27,576 nucleotides of DNA, from the IMG/VR virus record IMGVR_UViG_3300044701_002925, positions 1-27,576 of that record, one strand, 5' to 3'. The translations under genes and the position numbers were made by a program. The notes beneath the pieces were generated by a model that saw only the letters and a program-made list of their open reading frames with translations, was not told the DNA's origin and ran no database searches. Source of the stretch: a virus. Positions 2,292 to 11,298 of this stretch are shown one piece after another. Positions within the stretch are counted from its first letter, which is position 1. Each line of letters begins with the position of its first letter.

Positions 2292-3116
2292 CGTTCTCCT
2301 GGTCTCTAGTTTCTTAGAGGGGTGGACTATCTCTTCATCCCTGTGGGATGCCGGACGCTAAATCTGGTATTACGTAACAAGAACGTGTTACCCCCAGTAG
2401 TCTCTGCACCTTCCAATCACGCTTGATTGGCTTGGCTCAGGATTACCCTCGTCTTTACGTTAGGGCTTCCCTGAATTCATCCGGTTTGCACTCACCAATT
2501 GCTTGATGAGGTGACAACGTTGAGCGTTCAGTTGAGGAATGCTACAGTCGTGGAAACTTGTTTATAAACAAAATGAATCCAAAACTTGTACCTGGATTTG
2601 GAAATCTTTACTTAACTGAGGAAGGAAAAGCTTTTGAAAAACAACTTGATCAAAAAAACCAAGAATATTTTGTGGAGCTTCCCATTCGTTCTACCAGTTC
2701 TTACGACCGTATTTCAGTCCTTGTAGATGGAAAAAGAGAACGTTTTCATCTTCACGTCTTGATGGCAGTTGCTTTTTTAGAGTTGGATTTACGTTCTCAT
2801 GGAACGAATAATCTTTCCCTACAAGTCGATCACATTGATAACAACAAGAGAAATAATCGAGTTGAAAATCTTGAGATCGTTACCAAACAAGAAAATTTAA
2901 CAAGGGCCTGGAAAACGGGTTGTTATAAGAACAATGGTTTTGCCAGTAAAGGAAAGCCGAAGAATTCATTGAGAAAGTTTTCTTCGGATGACGTGATTCA
3001 AATTAAAACTTTAAAAGCAGCTGGTCTTTCTTATCGAAAAATTGCTGAAAAGTTTAACTGCAATCACGTAGCTATTTACCAAATCTTGAAGGGGCAAACC
3101 TACCAGGATCTGAACT
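2292..3116 (-). ncRNA. group I intron (IA-like) in the major capsid gene, with an antisense HNH gene
   Basis: The minus strand shows the conserved group I core. The P/P4-P6 segment AATCCTGAGCCAAGCC is at 2444-2429. The R segment GGTGCAGAGACTA is at 2410-2398 and the S segment AGATAGTCC at 2332-2324; GACTA/TAGTC form P7. P3 pairs CCGGATG (2484-2478) with CGTCCGG (2357-2351). P8 is CATCCC-aca-GGGATG (2350-2336). About 40 nt between P7 and P3 can hold P7.1/P7.2, as in subgroup IA. CTCTA-agaaac-TAGAG is a P9-like hairpin, and the intron ends in G at 2292 or 2296. The 5' end is inferred near 3116-3120, which would place the HNH gene inside the intron on the opposite strand. The core is certain from sequence; the 5' boundary is not. 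Confidence 0.85.
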
Positions 3117-3118
3117 AG
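2573..3118 (+). CDS. HNH homing endonuclease (antisense to the host intron)
   Basis: A 181-aa protein opposite in direction to all neighbouring late genes. It contains an HNH_3-type nuclease core: His59/His61 in 'RFHLHVLMAVAFLE', Asp86-His87 in 'QVDHIDNNKRNNRVENLEIVT', and the conserved Asn/Glu of the last helix. The C-terminal part (about 138-178, 'FSSDDVIQIKTLKAAGLSYRKIAEKF') is a helix-turn-helix of the kind found at the end of phage homing endonucleases. These enzymes nick or cut the intron-less allele and spread the intron. The ATG at 2573 is preferred over an upstream TTG at 2558. The gene is much more AT-rich than the capsid gene around it, a sign of recent arrival. Its TAG stop (3116-3118) overlaps the proposed 5' splice site. 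Confidence 0.85.
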   Translation: MNPKLVPGFGNLYLTEEGKAFEKQLDQKNQEYFVELPIRSTSSYDRISVLVDGKRERFHLHVLMAVAFLELDLRSHGTNNLSLQVDHIDNNKRNNRVENLEIVTKQENLTRAWKTGCYKNNGFASKGKPKNSLRKFSSDDVIQIKTLKAAGLSYRKIAEKFNCNHVAIYQILKGQTYQDLN

Positions 3119-5952: not shown

Positions 5953-6098
5953 CAACTATTTGCCTTTTTATCTTTATTGATCTTAGCAGCCTTCGCTTGC
6001 TTCTTCAGGCGCAACCACTTATCAAAGAATACGAGTTCGGCAGAAGAATAAAGTTCGGGATGGTTGAGCGCTTGCTTAACAAGTTTTTTAGTTTTCAT
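5952..6098 (-). CDS. small charged late protein (48 aa)
   Basis: The minus-strand ATG at 6098-6096 opens a 48-aa frame beginning MKTKKLVKQALNHPELYS. It contains 'AELVFFDKWLRLKK' and a Lys/Ala-rich tail. The stop TGA (5954-5952) overlaps the portal start as TGATG, and its own ATG overlaps the upstream gene as ATGA, so it sits in a chain of coupled genes. 'HPELYS.AEL' followed by aromatic residues recurs in small cyanophage proteins next to portal genes (from memory). It is likely a real gene because both junctions are perfect overlaps. No function can be given. Confidence 0.7.
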   Translation of the reverse strand: MKTKKLVKQALNHPELYSSAELVFFDKWLRLKKQAKAAKINKDKKANS

Positions 6099-6304
6099 TT
6101 TGACTCCTTGTAACGTTTAGCTGCGCGAGCAGCCTTGCCCGCTTTCTTAGCGGATTCCGTATTTGAAACAAATTGTTTTCCCTTGCGACTGCCGGCGCGT
6201 TTCTTCCGGTCAGTCTCCTCTCTTTCTTCTTTGGATAAAGAGGCCCATGCTTTTTCTGGCAAGTAGCGTTTTGTGTAGCCAGATTGAATTGCTTTGTCTG
6301 CCAT
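6095..6304 (-). CDS. small basic protein with a DUF5872-like C-terminal domain
   Basis: A 69-aa highly basic protein. The core 'YLPEKAWASLSKEEREETDR' and 'GSRKGKQFVSNT' is the second half of DUF5872-type proteins found in many phages and large viruses, where it normally follows a 'GGKPGQWSARKAQLL' half. Here the two halves are separate genes; the other half is at 7708-8025. The stop overlaps the next ATG by 4 nt. Its role is unknown; the charge suggests nucleic-acid binding or packaging with DNA in the head. Confidence 0.7.
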   Translation of the reverse strand: MADKAIQSGYTKRYLPEKAWASLSKEEREETDRKKRAGSRKGKQFVSNTESAKKAGKAARAAKRYKESK

Positions 6305-7489: not shown

Positions 7490-7501
7490 TACTTACTCTC
7501 T

Positions 7502-7711
7502 TTATACTTTTTGGCTACGGAATCTTCTGGAATTACTTTGAATCTCTTCCATTATTTTATCCGCACCAATCAGCATGCCTCCGGGACGCGTATTACCGGC
7601 TCGTCCAATGAAATGGGCAAGATACTCTTGAGGGTTGCCTCGAAACGAAATTGAACTTTTTGGATCAACAGCAAGATTAACTGAAAGATCTGAAATTGGT
7701 TGTTGTTTCAT
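7502..7711 (-). CDS. hypothetical protein (69 aa)
   Basis: A 69-aa frame starting MKQQPISDLSVNLAVDPKSS. It contains 'FRGNPQEYLAHFIGRAGNTRPGG' and a basic C-terminus. The ATG overlaps the stop of the preceding DUF5872-like frame as ATGA (7711-7708). This overlap matters because it indicates that translation of the interrupted gene upstream normally reaches its far end. No family recognised. Confidence 0.65.
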   Translation of the reverse strand: MKQQPISDLSVNLAVDPKSSISFRGNPQEYLAHFIGRAGNTRPGGMLIGADKIMEEIQSNSRRFRSQKV

Positions 7712-8025
7712 TTATCCTTTGTTTCTTTGTACTTCTTAGCAGCAGCTTTTGCTTTGCCCCGTTTCTCGTATTCGTCCTTAGTCATCCACTTTTCTTTGCC
7801 CCATTTCTCCAGGGATTTTTGCTTTTCCCCTTTACCACCACGATACCCGCCACCAGCCTCTTTGTACTCCTGGGCGAGGAGCTGAGCTTTTCTAGCCGAA
7901 ATAAGTAGTTAGCCTTGCGGCTACGACCATTCCCCTGGTTTGCCACCACGGCCTTCGCGCATAACTTTGTTTTTAATGCGCTCACGCAGATCTGGTTTTG
8001 TATACTTGGTTTTGTCTTCAGCCAT
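7708..8025 (-). CDS. DUF5872-like protein interrupted by a 27-nt insertion with in-frame stops
   Basis: From ATG 8025-8023 the frame reads 34 codons, from MAEDKTKYTKPDLRERIK to 'GGKPGEWS', and meets TAG (7923-7921). After a second TCG codon (7899-7897) the same frame continues 'ARKAQLLAQEYKEAGGGYRG' and on to a TGA at 7710-7708. Joining the halves across 27 nt restores the DUF5872 motif 'GGKPGxWSARKAQLL' with no residue lost (96 aa). Both stops in the insert (TAG, TAA) are in frame, so ordinary decoding yields a 34-aa fragment. The part after the insert has kept an open frame, normal composition and an ATGA overlap with the next gene. It is either a very recent pseudogene or a gene read by programmed ribosome bypass. 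Confidence 0.75.
7897..7926 (-). other. candidate translational-bypass element (take-off TCG, hairpin, landing TCG)
   Basis: Take-off codon TCG (7926-7924) is followed at once by stop TAG (7923-7921). TAG forms the first three bases of a perfect 5-bp stem, TAGCC (7923-7919) with GGCTA (7914-7910), closed by a GCAA tetraloop. Ten bases later comes a matching codon TCG (7899-7897), after which the DUF5872 frame resumes. T4 gene 60 has the same parts: matching take-off and landing codons, a UAG directly after take-off and a tetraloop stem holding that UAG. Its gap is 50 nt against 24 nt here. Function is inferred; a 24-nt insertion with a 3-bp duplication would look the same. Confidence 0.5.
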
Positions 8026-8626
8026 AACTGCCTCGCTCTTTGAGATAAGTGACTGCATTTGTCAATACATTTATATTATCACCGAATAAACCCAAAGCCC
8101 TGTTGCATTCTTTGCACAATAAACCTCTGAATTCATTGGTTTGGTGATTGTGATCCATCGCCAAAGACTGCCCATCTTTAGGAGGTTCTTGACAAATTGC
8201 ACATAAACCTTCTTGAGATTCAAAAACAATGTCGTATTGCTCTTTTGTTATTCCTCTGCGTTCATATTTTTTGTGTTGGCTATGAAGTAAATCTTGTCCT
8301 TGTTTTTTAACTTTTTCATAATGCTCTTTGTTATTGGTTACCCATTTATCCCATCCTATTTTGTTACACGCGTTGCATGAAGAATGAAGATACAGTTTTC
8401 CGTCTTGTTTTTTTCTTCTAAAACAATCCCAATTTAAATAATGAGCACATTTAGAACATTGTTTTTGGCCATCCGCGCCATACAAAAGCCTAAATCGACG
8501 ATTAACCAAGGATCTGCAATCCTTGCATACACTGTCTCTTTTTATGTTTCCAGCTGAGTTGTATCCTTTGTTTCCAAAATTTTCATGCGGCTTTCTTGTT
8601 CCGCATTCTCGGCAAAGTTTTTGCAT
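8018..8626 (-). CDS. Endonuclease VII-like (HNH/His-Me finger) homing endonuclease
   Basis: A 202-aa protein with a recombination endonuclease VII-type core at the C-terminus. Cys142-x2-Cys145, Asp158-His-Asn-His161 ('AMDHNHQTNEFRGLLC') and Cys171-x2-Cys174-Asn ('CNRALGLFGDN') form the zinc-bound His-Me nuclease. Two zinc-ribbon pairs come first (Cys5/8 with Cys34/37, Cys57/60 with Cys84/87) and probably bind DNA. It is much more AT-rich than its neighbours and lies between a truncated and an interrupted DUF5872-like gene, as expected of a freestanding homing endonuclease. Its TGA (8020-8018) overlaps the ATG of the next gene by 8 nt. It is too small and oddly placed to be the phage's own Holliday-junction resolvase, though that is not excluded. 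Confidence 0.8.
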   Translation of the reverse strand: MQKLCRECGTRKPHENFGNKGYNSAGNIKRDSVCKDCRSLVNRRFRLLYGADGQKQCSKCAHYLNWDCFRRKKQDGKLYLHSSCNACNKIGWDKWVTNNKEHYEKVKKQGQDLLHSQHKKYERRGITKEQYDIVFESQEGLCAICQEPPKDGQSLAMDHNHQTNEFRGLLCKECNRALGLFGDNINVLTNAVTYLKERGSYG

Positions 8627-8633
8627 TGTCTAG

Positions 8634-8660
8634 TTTGTGCTTTTCTTACTATAGCACAAA
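8634..8660 (-). promoter_or_regulatory. 8-bp hairpin before the homing endonuclease
   Basis: TTTGTGCT (8634-8641) pairs with AGCACAAA (8653-8660), leaving an 11-nt loop. It lies between the stop of the truncated DUF5872-like frame and the endonuclease ATG (8626). No T-tract follows. It could limit expression of the endonuclease in the late transcript, as hairpins do before T4 homing endonuclease genes. Confidence 0.5.
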
Positions 8661-8661
8661 A

Positions 8662-8760
8662 TTATTGACCGGCTTTGCCGCCTTTCTCGCCGGCCATGAT
8701 CCGATCTTTGATTCGCTCACGCAGCTCAGGTTTGGAATATTTGCTATCGTCTTGTGCCAT
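8662..8760 (-). CDS. truncated DUF5872-like N-terminal fragment (32 aa)
   Basis: The ATG (8760-8758) overlaps the previous stop as TGATG. The frame reads 32 aa, from MAQDDSKYSKPELRERIKDR to 'GEKGGKAGQ', then TAA. This is a paralogue of the start of the gene at 8025 ('KYTKPDLRERIKNKVM..GGKPGEW'). It ends where the conserved Trp of 'GGKPGQW' should be. The rest of the domain is missing, and the Endonuclease VII-like gene follows. It is probably the left-over of an ancestral gene split or converted when the endonuclease arrived. Confidence 0.65.
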   Translation of the reverse strand: MAQDDSKYSKPELRERIKDRIMAGEKGGKAGQ

Positions 8761-9245
8761 CAGGAAACAAATTTAGATTGAAAACCTGTCGGTAACCCCG
8801 CCTTGGGCATATATTGTTCACGGAAATTTGCAGGGGGAGGAGTGCCCTGCTGGAGGAGACGCGCCTTTTCTTCGGGTGTTAAAGGAACGTTGGGTGCTCC
8901 GCCATAAGGCTTTTGGCTTGGTTGCTCAGGACCTGCTTGACCAAGCTGGGGACCTTCAAAAAATTGAGCATTGGCGATACCGCCCATGTTACCTACAGCC
9001 CCAGGGAGATTACTAGAGCCAAAGGCCATGGGAAGCTGCGGCCCACTGCCGGGCATAATGCCACGACGCATCAACTCGTCATTGAGCTGTTCGTTCTGTT
9101 GGGTGCCGCCTTCATACAAACGGCGAAGCTGTTCACCTGAGCGGCCACCTAACGCACCGGGTACACGCCGAATGTCAAAGCTTGGGGCGCCTGCCAGTAA
9201 ATTACCGGGAGCGCCTGGAACGTTTGATTCACCGCCGTAAAACAT
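8760..9245 (-). CDS. hypothetical Gly/Pro-rich virion-block protein (161 aa)
   Basis: Starts at ATG 9245-9243 (MFYGGESNVPGAPGNLLAG) with AAGAGAT upstream; the open frame extends further but without a better start. It contains many 'PG', 'GG' and 'LPGA' repeats, a charged helical stretch ('EQLRRLYEGGTQQNEQLNDE') and a Pro/Gln-rich C-terminus. No signal peptide or membrane segment is present. The composition resembles the low-complexity proteins at 11495 and 3243. It is likely a minor virion or assembly protein, judged from position only. Confidence 0.6.
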   Translation of the reverse strand: MFYGGESNVPGAPGNLLAGAPSFDIRRVPGALGGRSGEQLRRLYEGGTQQNEQLNDELMRRGIMPGSGPQLPMAFGSSNLPGAVGNMGGIANAQFFEGPQLGQAGPEQPSQKPYGGAPNVPLTPEEKARLLQQGTPPPANFREQYMPKAGLPTGFQSKFVS

Positions 9246-9771: not shown

Positions 9772-11298
9772 TTAGTAATCAATGTGCAACTGACCTTTTC
9801 TTGCAAGTCCAGTAACCAACCAAACCAACGCGTCAACGCAGTCATCATGACCACTAACGCCGAAATTTGTGAGTTCCTCGAAGAGATTTGTGAAGTTCCG
9901 GAAACGATTGAAGATTATCTTTCGATCTTCAAACATACCCATGATTCCACGGAAACGTGCCAGCTTGTCTGCACGGAAACCCTTGACTGGATGCCAAATC
10001 AAATTGTAGAGACCTTCGTTATTCAGGCAAACCCGTTTGAAGTCGGCTTCGAGAGAAGCTTGGTATTGGACGGCTTCTGACCAAATATCACATGTGGAAT
10101 AAGTCGGAAAATAATTTCCGCTATCATCACGTCCAATCACCGACCAATCGTTCAACAATTCTTTAAGAGCGTCCAGTTTTTCCAGGTTGCCCATGACGCG
10201 TATGCGCCTGTAATCGATGATATGAATGCGGTCGCCAATGCGTCCGCCAAGGATCATCACGGTGTAATCGTTCTTCTCTTTGGTGCCAGCAGAAAGGTCC
10301 ACACCAATACCGAGCGTATCAAACTCCGTTGAAATTTCCGCTTTAACAATTAGTTCTGGCGCCAGAGAAAGCTCGTTCTGTCTGACAATTTGATTCATAT
10401 ATTGAAACGAGAAAGCAATTGGCGCTTGCCGTTTCTTTTCTTTGAGGTAATCTAGTGACCACATCTCAGGCCAATAAGACTCTTCTTCTCCTGTTTTAAG
10501 GTTTGTATTAATTGCAGAAAGAACGATCTGCATCCAATTGTTCTGTTTGTTAAAAGTAGTGGCGTGAATATCATCGTGCCTAAAGCGAGTTCCAAGGCAA
10601 ATAGCACGTGCGCCTTCAAACATGGTGGGAGCAATCACCGCGTTCCAGTTCTCCTGCATTTGTTTCCGAATGTCAGGGTTGGCAATGTCAGCGGCAGATT
10701 TAATAGCGTCATCAATCATTACCAGATGAGAACGCTTGGAAGTCACCGAACCCTTAAGGCCTGCAGCGCAGAGGGTAAATTGTTCGTCACCAGTAGTGTC
10801 AATGCCAGCAAACTTATGGTCAATTGACCAATACTCATTACTGGTAACGTTCTTCATCAAACGCACCGTCGGGAAAACTTCCTGATAGCGTTTGCTTTCA
10901 ATAATGCGTTTAATTGTTGCAGACTTAGAACGTGCAATATCAACCGTGTACGACAGATAAAGAATCTGCAATGGCAACTTGGCTTGTGTATGAATACCAA
11001 TAGCCCAGGCAGTCAGCAAGCCAAGAACCGTTGATTTAGCTGATCCTCGTGGCGCAAGAAGATCAATATTGGGGCCAGCAATTTTAATTAAACAGTTGCT
11101 GTCTTCGTTAGTAACAAAGTGCCGATGCCATTCTTTGTGATGCGTAGCAGGAGGTTTATCTGCAACATACTCACAGAAATAAGCAAAGTCTTCCCGCGCA
11201 AGCTCTAGTGCTTCTGCGTTGCGCGGAATTCGGATCTGTTGGCGGCGTGCCGCAGCCTTCGCATTGCGACGATAGGCAAGATGCGTATAGCTAGGCAC
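9772..11298 (-). CDS. terL: terminase large subunit
   Basis: A 508-aa DNA packaging motor. The ATPase carries Walker A 'APRGSAKST' (82-90) and Walker B 'HLVMIDDAI' (191-199) with the catalytic acid following. The RNase H-like nuclease carries Asp334 in 'GIGVDLSAG' and a C-terminal acid cluster in 'HDDCVDAL' (484-491). It cuts concatemers and pumps DNA through the portal. The best start is GTG (11298-11296), since no in-frame ATG with a ribosome-binding site precedes 'PSYTHLAYRRNAKAAARRQ'. It follows a probable small subunit three genes upstream. Length and motifs are complete. Confidence 0.95.
   Translation of the reverse strand: MPSYTHLAYRRNAKAAARRQQIRIPRNAEALELAREDFAYFCEYVADKPPATHHKEWHRHFVTNEDSNCLIKIAGPNIDLLAPRGSAKSTVLGLLTAWAIGIHTQAKLPLQILYLSYTVDIARSKSATIKRIIESKRYQEVFPTVRLMKNVTSNEYWSIDHKFAGIDTTGDEQFTLCAAGLKGSVTSKRSHLVMIDDAIKSAADIANPDIRKQMQENWNAVIAPTMFEGARAICLGTRFRHDDIHATTFNKQNNWMQIVLSAINTNLKTGEEESYWPEMWSLDYLKEKKRQAPIAFSFQYMNQIVRQNELSLAPELIVKAEISTEFDTLGIGVDLSAGTKEKNDYTVMILGGRIGDRIHIIDYRRIRVMGNLEKLDALKELLNDWSVIGRDDSGNYFPTYSTCDIWSEAVQYQASLEADFKRVCLNNEGLYNLIWHPVKGFRADKLARFRGIMGMFEDRKIIFNRFRNFTNLFEELTNFGVSGHDDCVDALVWLVTGLARKGQLHIDY

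Follow-up and report, generated by a model that had tools for sequence, protein, structure and literature searches.

How can a phage gene that is interrupted by a stop codon and a short run of extra nucleotides still give rise to one protein? The stretch of DNA analysed here, hereafter the window, is a 27.6-kb (27,576 nt) virus record (IMGVR_UViG_3300044701_002925), and its minus strand carries such a gene, divided into an N-terminal part (N-half) and a C-terminal part (C-half). An earlier note had read the arrangement as a ribosome-bypass element with TCG as both take-off and landing codon. The parts it named, from the TAG and its hairpin through the following 10 nt and second TCG to the C-half in the same frame, all lie where it placed them, and the inserted length of 27 nt is borne out in the sequence (Table 1). 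That note was silent on the HNH gene and the left-over native N-terminus that we found upstream, as well as on mobility and on gap lengths spanning three frames. The left-over N-terminus ends where the join should come (GGKAGQ, then TAA) and is 78% identical to the N-half over 54 nt. On comparative sequence evidence, we consider it very probable that the locus represents programmed translational bypass as in T4 gene 60, and that the element resides on a homing-endonuclease cassette.

Table 1. Features of the interrupted gene and the associated cassette in the window, in the order of the minus strand.
Feature	Position	Strand	Basis or remark
Left-over native N-terminus, MAQDDSKYSKPELRERIKDRIMAGEKGGKAGQ then TAA	8662..8760	-	ORF; severed from its C-half by the cassette
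Inverted repeat TTTGTGCT / AGCACAAA	8634..8660	-	Between left-over N-terminus and HNH start
HNH protein, endonuclease VII family, 202 aa	8018..8626	-	Pfam, PHROG; end overlaps ATG of N-half
N-half, 34 codons, cassette-borne, MAEDKTKYTKPDLRERIKNKVMREGRGGKPGEWS	7924..8025	-	ATG at 8025; ends in Trp and take-off Ser-TCG
Take-off codon TCG (TGG-TCG context)	7924-7926	-	Read from sequence
Hop gap, 27 nt	7897..7923	-	Hairpin, spacer and landing codon
Perfect 5-bp hairpin UAGCC-GCAA-GGCUA	7910-7923	-	Stop UAG (7923-7921) lies inside it
10-nt spacer ACUACUUAUU	7900-7909	-	Between hairpin and landing codon
Landing codon TCG	7897-7899	-	Followed by ARKAQLL...
C-half, 62 codons and stop TGA (7710-7708)	7708..7896	-	Native part of interrupted gene; TGA overlaps ATG of next gene

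The interrupted gene had been described as DUF5872-like. Its resemblance to this family (PF19197) holds, but the C-half scores 15.1 bits against a Pfam cut-off of 27.5 bits, and two intact homologues, at 21.3 and 21.4 bits, also fall below that cut-off. The terminases of the window and of Synechococcus phage S-EIV1 share 83% identity, which points to picocyanobacteria as the probable hosts. S-EIV1, a cultured isolate and the sole C-half match among named phages, carries the gene uninterrupted and without the gap. Separately, the 508-aa window terminase (9775-11298, minus strand) aligns with S-EIV1 as two separate segments across ~2.5 kb (KJ410740.1, 54080-56617), so the S-EIV1 terminase gene probably has an insert that the window is without; this would probably be an intein, an intron or another cassette.

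We assembled relatives through several searches. A C-half search of IMG/VR returned at least 599 pattern matches and at least 550 relatives, from which the best 80 of 550 were kept. Homologues without exactly these nucleotides, a comparison the earlier note had suggested, were plentiful: 74 of the best 80 relatives are uninterrupted (64 distinct), and the other 6 have a gap at the same point. A search with the hairpin pattern yielded 67 stretches, and 48 of these represent this gene; the set is selected for TCG-TAG. Searching with the HNH protein, and thus without selection on the hairpin, gave 40 loci, at 37 of which TGG-TCG-TAG is present in this gene; the remaining 3 are distant HNH genes that do not adjoin it. 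A looser pattern for other hairpins returned 79 stretches and added two loci, L236, in which the hairpin is lost, and L263, which is damaged in its N-half, gap and C-half alike (1025-1090). We excluded L263 from all counts as degraded or misread; the N-terminus of another locus from its sample, L064, contains an indel, and L263 may therefore reflect either noisy reads or decay. Taken together with the window and L236, the searches comprise 50 records, in which we count 42 distinct elements and 20 gaps that differ in sequence. An assembly error, raised previously as a way in which the reading could fail, is excluded because the 50 records show 20 different gap sequences.

Might the second half simply be dead or dying, in a gene broken by the HNH insertion? 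HNH insertions can disrupt genes, the L263 copy is damaged, and the left-over N-terminus of L132 is frameshifted. The C-half, however, is open in all 42 distinct elements over 47-62 codons (58 in L086, up to the end of its stretch), and the pile-up of frameshifts that would speak against bypass was looked for and is absent. Over the first 47 C-half codons, pN/pS is 0.231 with the gap (n = 41) and 0.230 without it (n = 64): purifying selection on the C-half is the same as it is in genes lacking the interruption. In a tree of the C-half, one group free of empty alleles takes in the 13 elements whose gaps measure 28, 29 or 33 nt (its support, 86, is under the starred level). Their C-half pS is 0.66 and pN/pS 0.18 (bootstrap 0.09-0.29), and their N-half pN/pS is 0.23; both halves are therefore under protein-level selection despite the stops between them, and in 12 of these 13 elements the halves are out of frame with each other. 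The interrupted copy also appears to be the only one, as the C-half is present once in all 18 element records searched (of 50; records may be fragments), with a single match in the window record. We regard a pseudogene as highly unlikely.

Gap length and frame constrain how the two halves could be joined. Across the 42 elements the gap measures 23 (2 elements), 24 (12), 27 (15), 28 (7), 29 (5) or 33 nt (1); its length is not a multiple of three in 14, and the halves therefore occur in all three relative frames. UAG opens the gap in every element of this pattern-selected set. Stop readthrough is rejected, as all 42 gaps carry 2-4 stops in the N-half frame. Simple frameshifting is rejected for 40 of the 42, in which a C-frame stop lies inside the gap, at most 4 codons before the landing codon. 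The exceptions are L091 and L101, with 23-nt gaps, where no C-frame stop separates the C-half from an ATG or GTG within the N-half, making frameshift or restart possible in those two.

These stops also bear on a model in which two separate proteins are made, with termination at the UAG followed by restart at a nearby non-canonical or internal codon, and in which the halves may associate. The distance past the stop is short, and candidate start sites are not lacking: beyond L091 and L101, the C-half has an ATG at codon 6 in 15 of 42 elements and a GTG at codon 7 in 3, and many 24- and 27-nt elements, the window included, place ATT or ATA just before the landing codon. For mycobacteriophage Corndog, such a restart following an HNH insertion has been considered (PMC4351075). 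Against it, in 40 of 42 elements the stretch from the C-frame stop to the C-half holds no ATG, GTG or TTG, in 9 this stop lies immediately before the landing codon, and 11 C-halves are without any ATG, GTG or TTG throughout. Restart would also leave the matched TCG codons and the spacer composition described below unexplained, and we judge it improbable.

Take-off is TCG, and landing is TCG in 40 of 42 elements and TCT, also serine, in the other 2; a tRNA-Ser could decode UCU through wobble. TCG is otherwise uncommon, occurring at this serine in 4 of 64 uninterrupted alleles and, at the other serine positions of the element genes, in 5 of 160 codons. A hairpin closed by a GNRA loop, which comes in five versions, persists in 41 of 42 elements and in 19 of 20 gap sequences; L236 has lost its hairpin and kept both halves. 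No covariation was found in the hairpin stem, which is uninformative because the stem hardly varies, and RNAalifold applied to 41 elements gave only short further pairings, one pair among them with a two-sided change. The dinucleotide UC before the landing codon is absent from all 20 gaps. Shuffled spacers had it in a mean of 7.1 of 20, and zero was reached in 0 of 20,000 shuffles, a statistic that serves as a guide only because the spacers are related to each other.

The statement that no Shine-Dalgarno (SD)-like sequence precedes the landing codon needs a qualification: the hairpin contains RAGG in 41 of 42 elements, but 9-19 nt before landing, and none lies at the T4 spacing. The RAGG-to-landing distance varies with gap length, and across the 42 elements we found no SD-like element at a fixed spacing before landing. 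On the nascent-peptide side, element N-halves have a K/N/R/Q-YTK-like stretch (in 25 of 41 it reads KYTK) that precedes the take-off serine by 24-27 residues and resembles the gene 60 signal KKYK; none contains an exact KKYK. Because YTK or YSK is common to uninterrupted genes too, this stretch is at most a pre-adaptation. As a separate observation, the residue before Trp-Ser, third from the gap, is Glu in 41 of 41 element N-halves, whereas the uninterrupted genes have Glu in 3 of 64 and Gln in 61; this Glu could belong to a nascent-peptide signal or simply reflect the ancestry of the cassette.

We then turn to what brought the gap into this gene. The HNH protein matches Pfam Endonuclease_7 (E = 1.9e-22) and PHROG endonuclease VII (E = 1.5e-33) and is presumably a homing endonuclease, with a defined insertion site, existing empty alleles and a patchy distribution. 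Its matches in 1714 named-phage records (40 among the matches listed) are all below 60% identity. F-CphI of Synechococcus phage S-PM2, annotated as a homing endonuclease, belongs to the same family (33.5% identical across 76% of the query); its annotated features show no gap under the match. On the C-half DNA tree (106 rows, 126 columns), in which many forks are unresolved, the element label requires 18 changes, 7 of them forced by well-supported branches. Elements of the 27-nt class show a synonymous divergence of 0.29 for the N-half (n = 11) and 0.40 for the HNH gene (n = 9), compared with 0.83 for the C-half once its first five codons are set aside (n = 12), and the cassette therefore looks younger than the genes hosting it.

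Left-over N-termini, detected by pattern search in 29 of 50 element records, read like the N-termini of uninterrupted alleles and not like the cassette N-half. The HNH gene is full length in 30 of the 42 elements (26 by script, 4 by eye) and runs off the end of the stretch in 3. In the other 9 it is gone or a remnant, with the hop gap and both halves intact, which further argues against a pseudogene; five of these (L087, L092, L104, L113 and L127) also have no left-over N-terminus within 1.5 kb. Most loci viewed from the HNH-based search have an inverted-repeat-like sequence upstream of the HNH gene, and the repeat in the window might control HNH expression.

Introns often accompany homing endonucleases, which raises the alternative that the gap is a tiny intron cut from the mRNA, or a relic that still splices. 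We consider such RNA-level removal very doubtful: the gap is just 23-33 nt long, window positions 7500-8900 gave no Rfam match at E<=1, and neither a stop at the take-off codon nor matched serine codons play a part in splicing.

Empty alleles, matched codons and open C-halves support the earlier proposal of a bypass element. A fused protein would be made from the two halves, as selection on both suggests indirectly. Under bypass, the ribosome would translate the N-half up to Ser-UCG and meet the UAG inside the small GNRA hairpin. Codon-anticodon contact would be lost, the ribosome would slide over 23-33 nt, and the peptidyl-tRNA-Ser would re-pair at the first UCG (UCU in two elements), after which the C-half would be read. 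The predicted product in the window phage is one protein of ~96 aa. The window itself contains no tRNA gene. The proposed cassette consists of the inverted repeat, the endonuclease VII-type HNH gene, a recoded N-half and the gap, and it would have entered uninterrupted alleles repeatedly at a Gly-Gln/Trp-Ser site. Insertion would strand the native N-terminus, for which the cassette would bring a replacement N-half, and some lineages have since lost the HNH gene while keeping the putative hop. The gap presumably stops the endonuclease from re-cutting the rebuilt site, by analogy with T4 gene 60, whose gap has been suggested to protect against a nuclease (PMC11194080, PMC5009743, PMC3014915).

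The likeness to T4 gene 60 extends further. As described for that gene (PMC3014915, PMC5009743, PMC11194080), a UAG directly follows take-off inside a small tetraloop hairpin, the landing codon matches, the gap is missing in relatives, and an HNH gene (mobA) is inserted alongside a split host gene. The T4 case nevertheless has its own features in the same sources: 50 nt, GGA codons and a topoisomerase; a KKYK nascent signal, 5' and 3' stem-loops and a GAG six nt before landing; and a gap present in T4 and not in its sequenced relatives. Here, by contrast, the gap spans 23-33 nt, the codons are TCG (landing TCT in two), the loop is of another type, the gene is small, an endonuclease VII-type HNH brings its own N-half, no SD-like element stands at a fixed spacing, and the distribution is wide (50 records with 20 gap sequences). 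The mitochondrial byps of Magnusiomyces capitatus are likewise short blocks skipped in translation, many in number (81), with take-off and landing matches that are not always perfect (PMC5009743). They belong to mitochondrial translation, occur in many genes and are reported as context-independent (PMC5009743), unlike the present elements, which concern one gene and one site in phages and are HNH-linked. Among proposed bacterial and phage hops are the Prevotella loescheii adhesin (29-nt) and the Streptomyces phage Hau3 terminase (PMC5009743), as well as tmp of mycobacteriophage Corndog, which likewise lies beside an inserted HNH gene (PMC4351075). As far as these sources describe them, they are single cases that were not followed up or are uncertain, and their descriptions contain no comparative family with frame-changing gaps (PMC5009743, PMC4351075).

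We also searched beyond this gene. A scan with pattern TAGCCGNAAGGCTAA (at least 119 stretches), combined with the loci of the earlier pattern, revealed no second host gene among the matches examined. Of 131 pattern matches examined, 102 do not follow TCG; 9 of those passed a crude two-ORF filter, and none of the 9 resembled an interrupted gene when read by eye. Beside distant endonuclease VII relatives, no comparable gap was noticed by eye in 400 nt downstream at 21 of 46 new loci. In L190-L194 a more distant endonuclease VII gene directly precedes a small basic gene with a KRAGKAKGKQFV-like end, which resembles a 69-aa gene of the window (6095-6304, minus strand); from sequence, the endonuclease VII family may target several small basic genes. 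In L195 and L218, relatives of the endonuclease directly precede a gene that, from its translation, we take to resemble a T4 gp47-type nuclease. A 186-aa ORF in the window (2558-3118, plus strand, opposite to the structural genes) presumably resembles, by its motif, another HNH homing endonuclease. In open-licence PMC titles and abstract openings, no such element is described among the matches listed, and 0 open-licence PMC papers join 'translational bypass' with 'cyanophage'.

The 2016 recoding review, where it treats these cases, notes a paucity of known occurrences before the mitochondrial ones, and that counterparts of T4 gene 60, perhaps shorter and with matched codons, had long been presumed (PMC5009743). 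We think it likely that the present elements form a class of mobile DNA for which the ribosome, and not an RNA- or protein-level process, does the 'splicing'. Its marks would be a minimal ~25-nt hop signal, of any length modulo three, with which the homing endonuclease renders its own insertion tolerable, repeated spread between phages, and a solitary gap that outlasts its nuclease. If so, they would offer dozens of natural, selected bypass variants for comparison, as a family of short phage hops that is widespread and includes 20 gap sequences found in nature. The comparison suggests that a hop needs a UAG, a GNRA hairpin, an A/U-rich spacer free of UC and a UCG landing codon, and that it does not need a fixed length, a particular frame or a fixed SD spacing. 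If the hops are real, the proposed protection of homing cassettes by bypass gaps would become testable outside T4.
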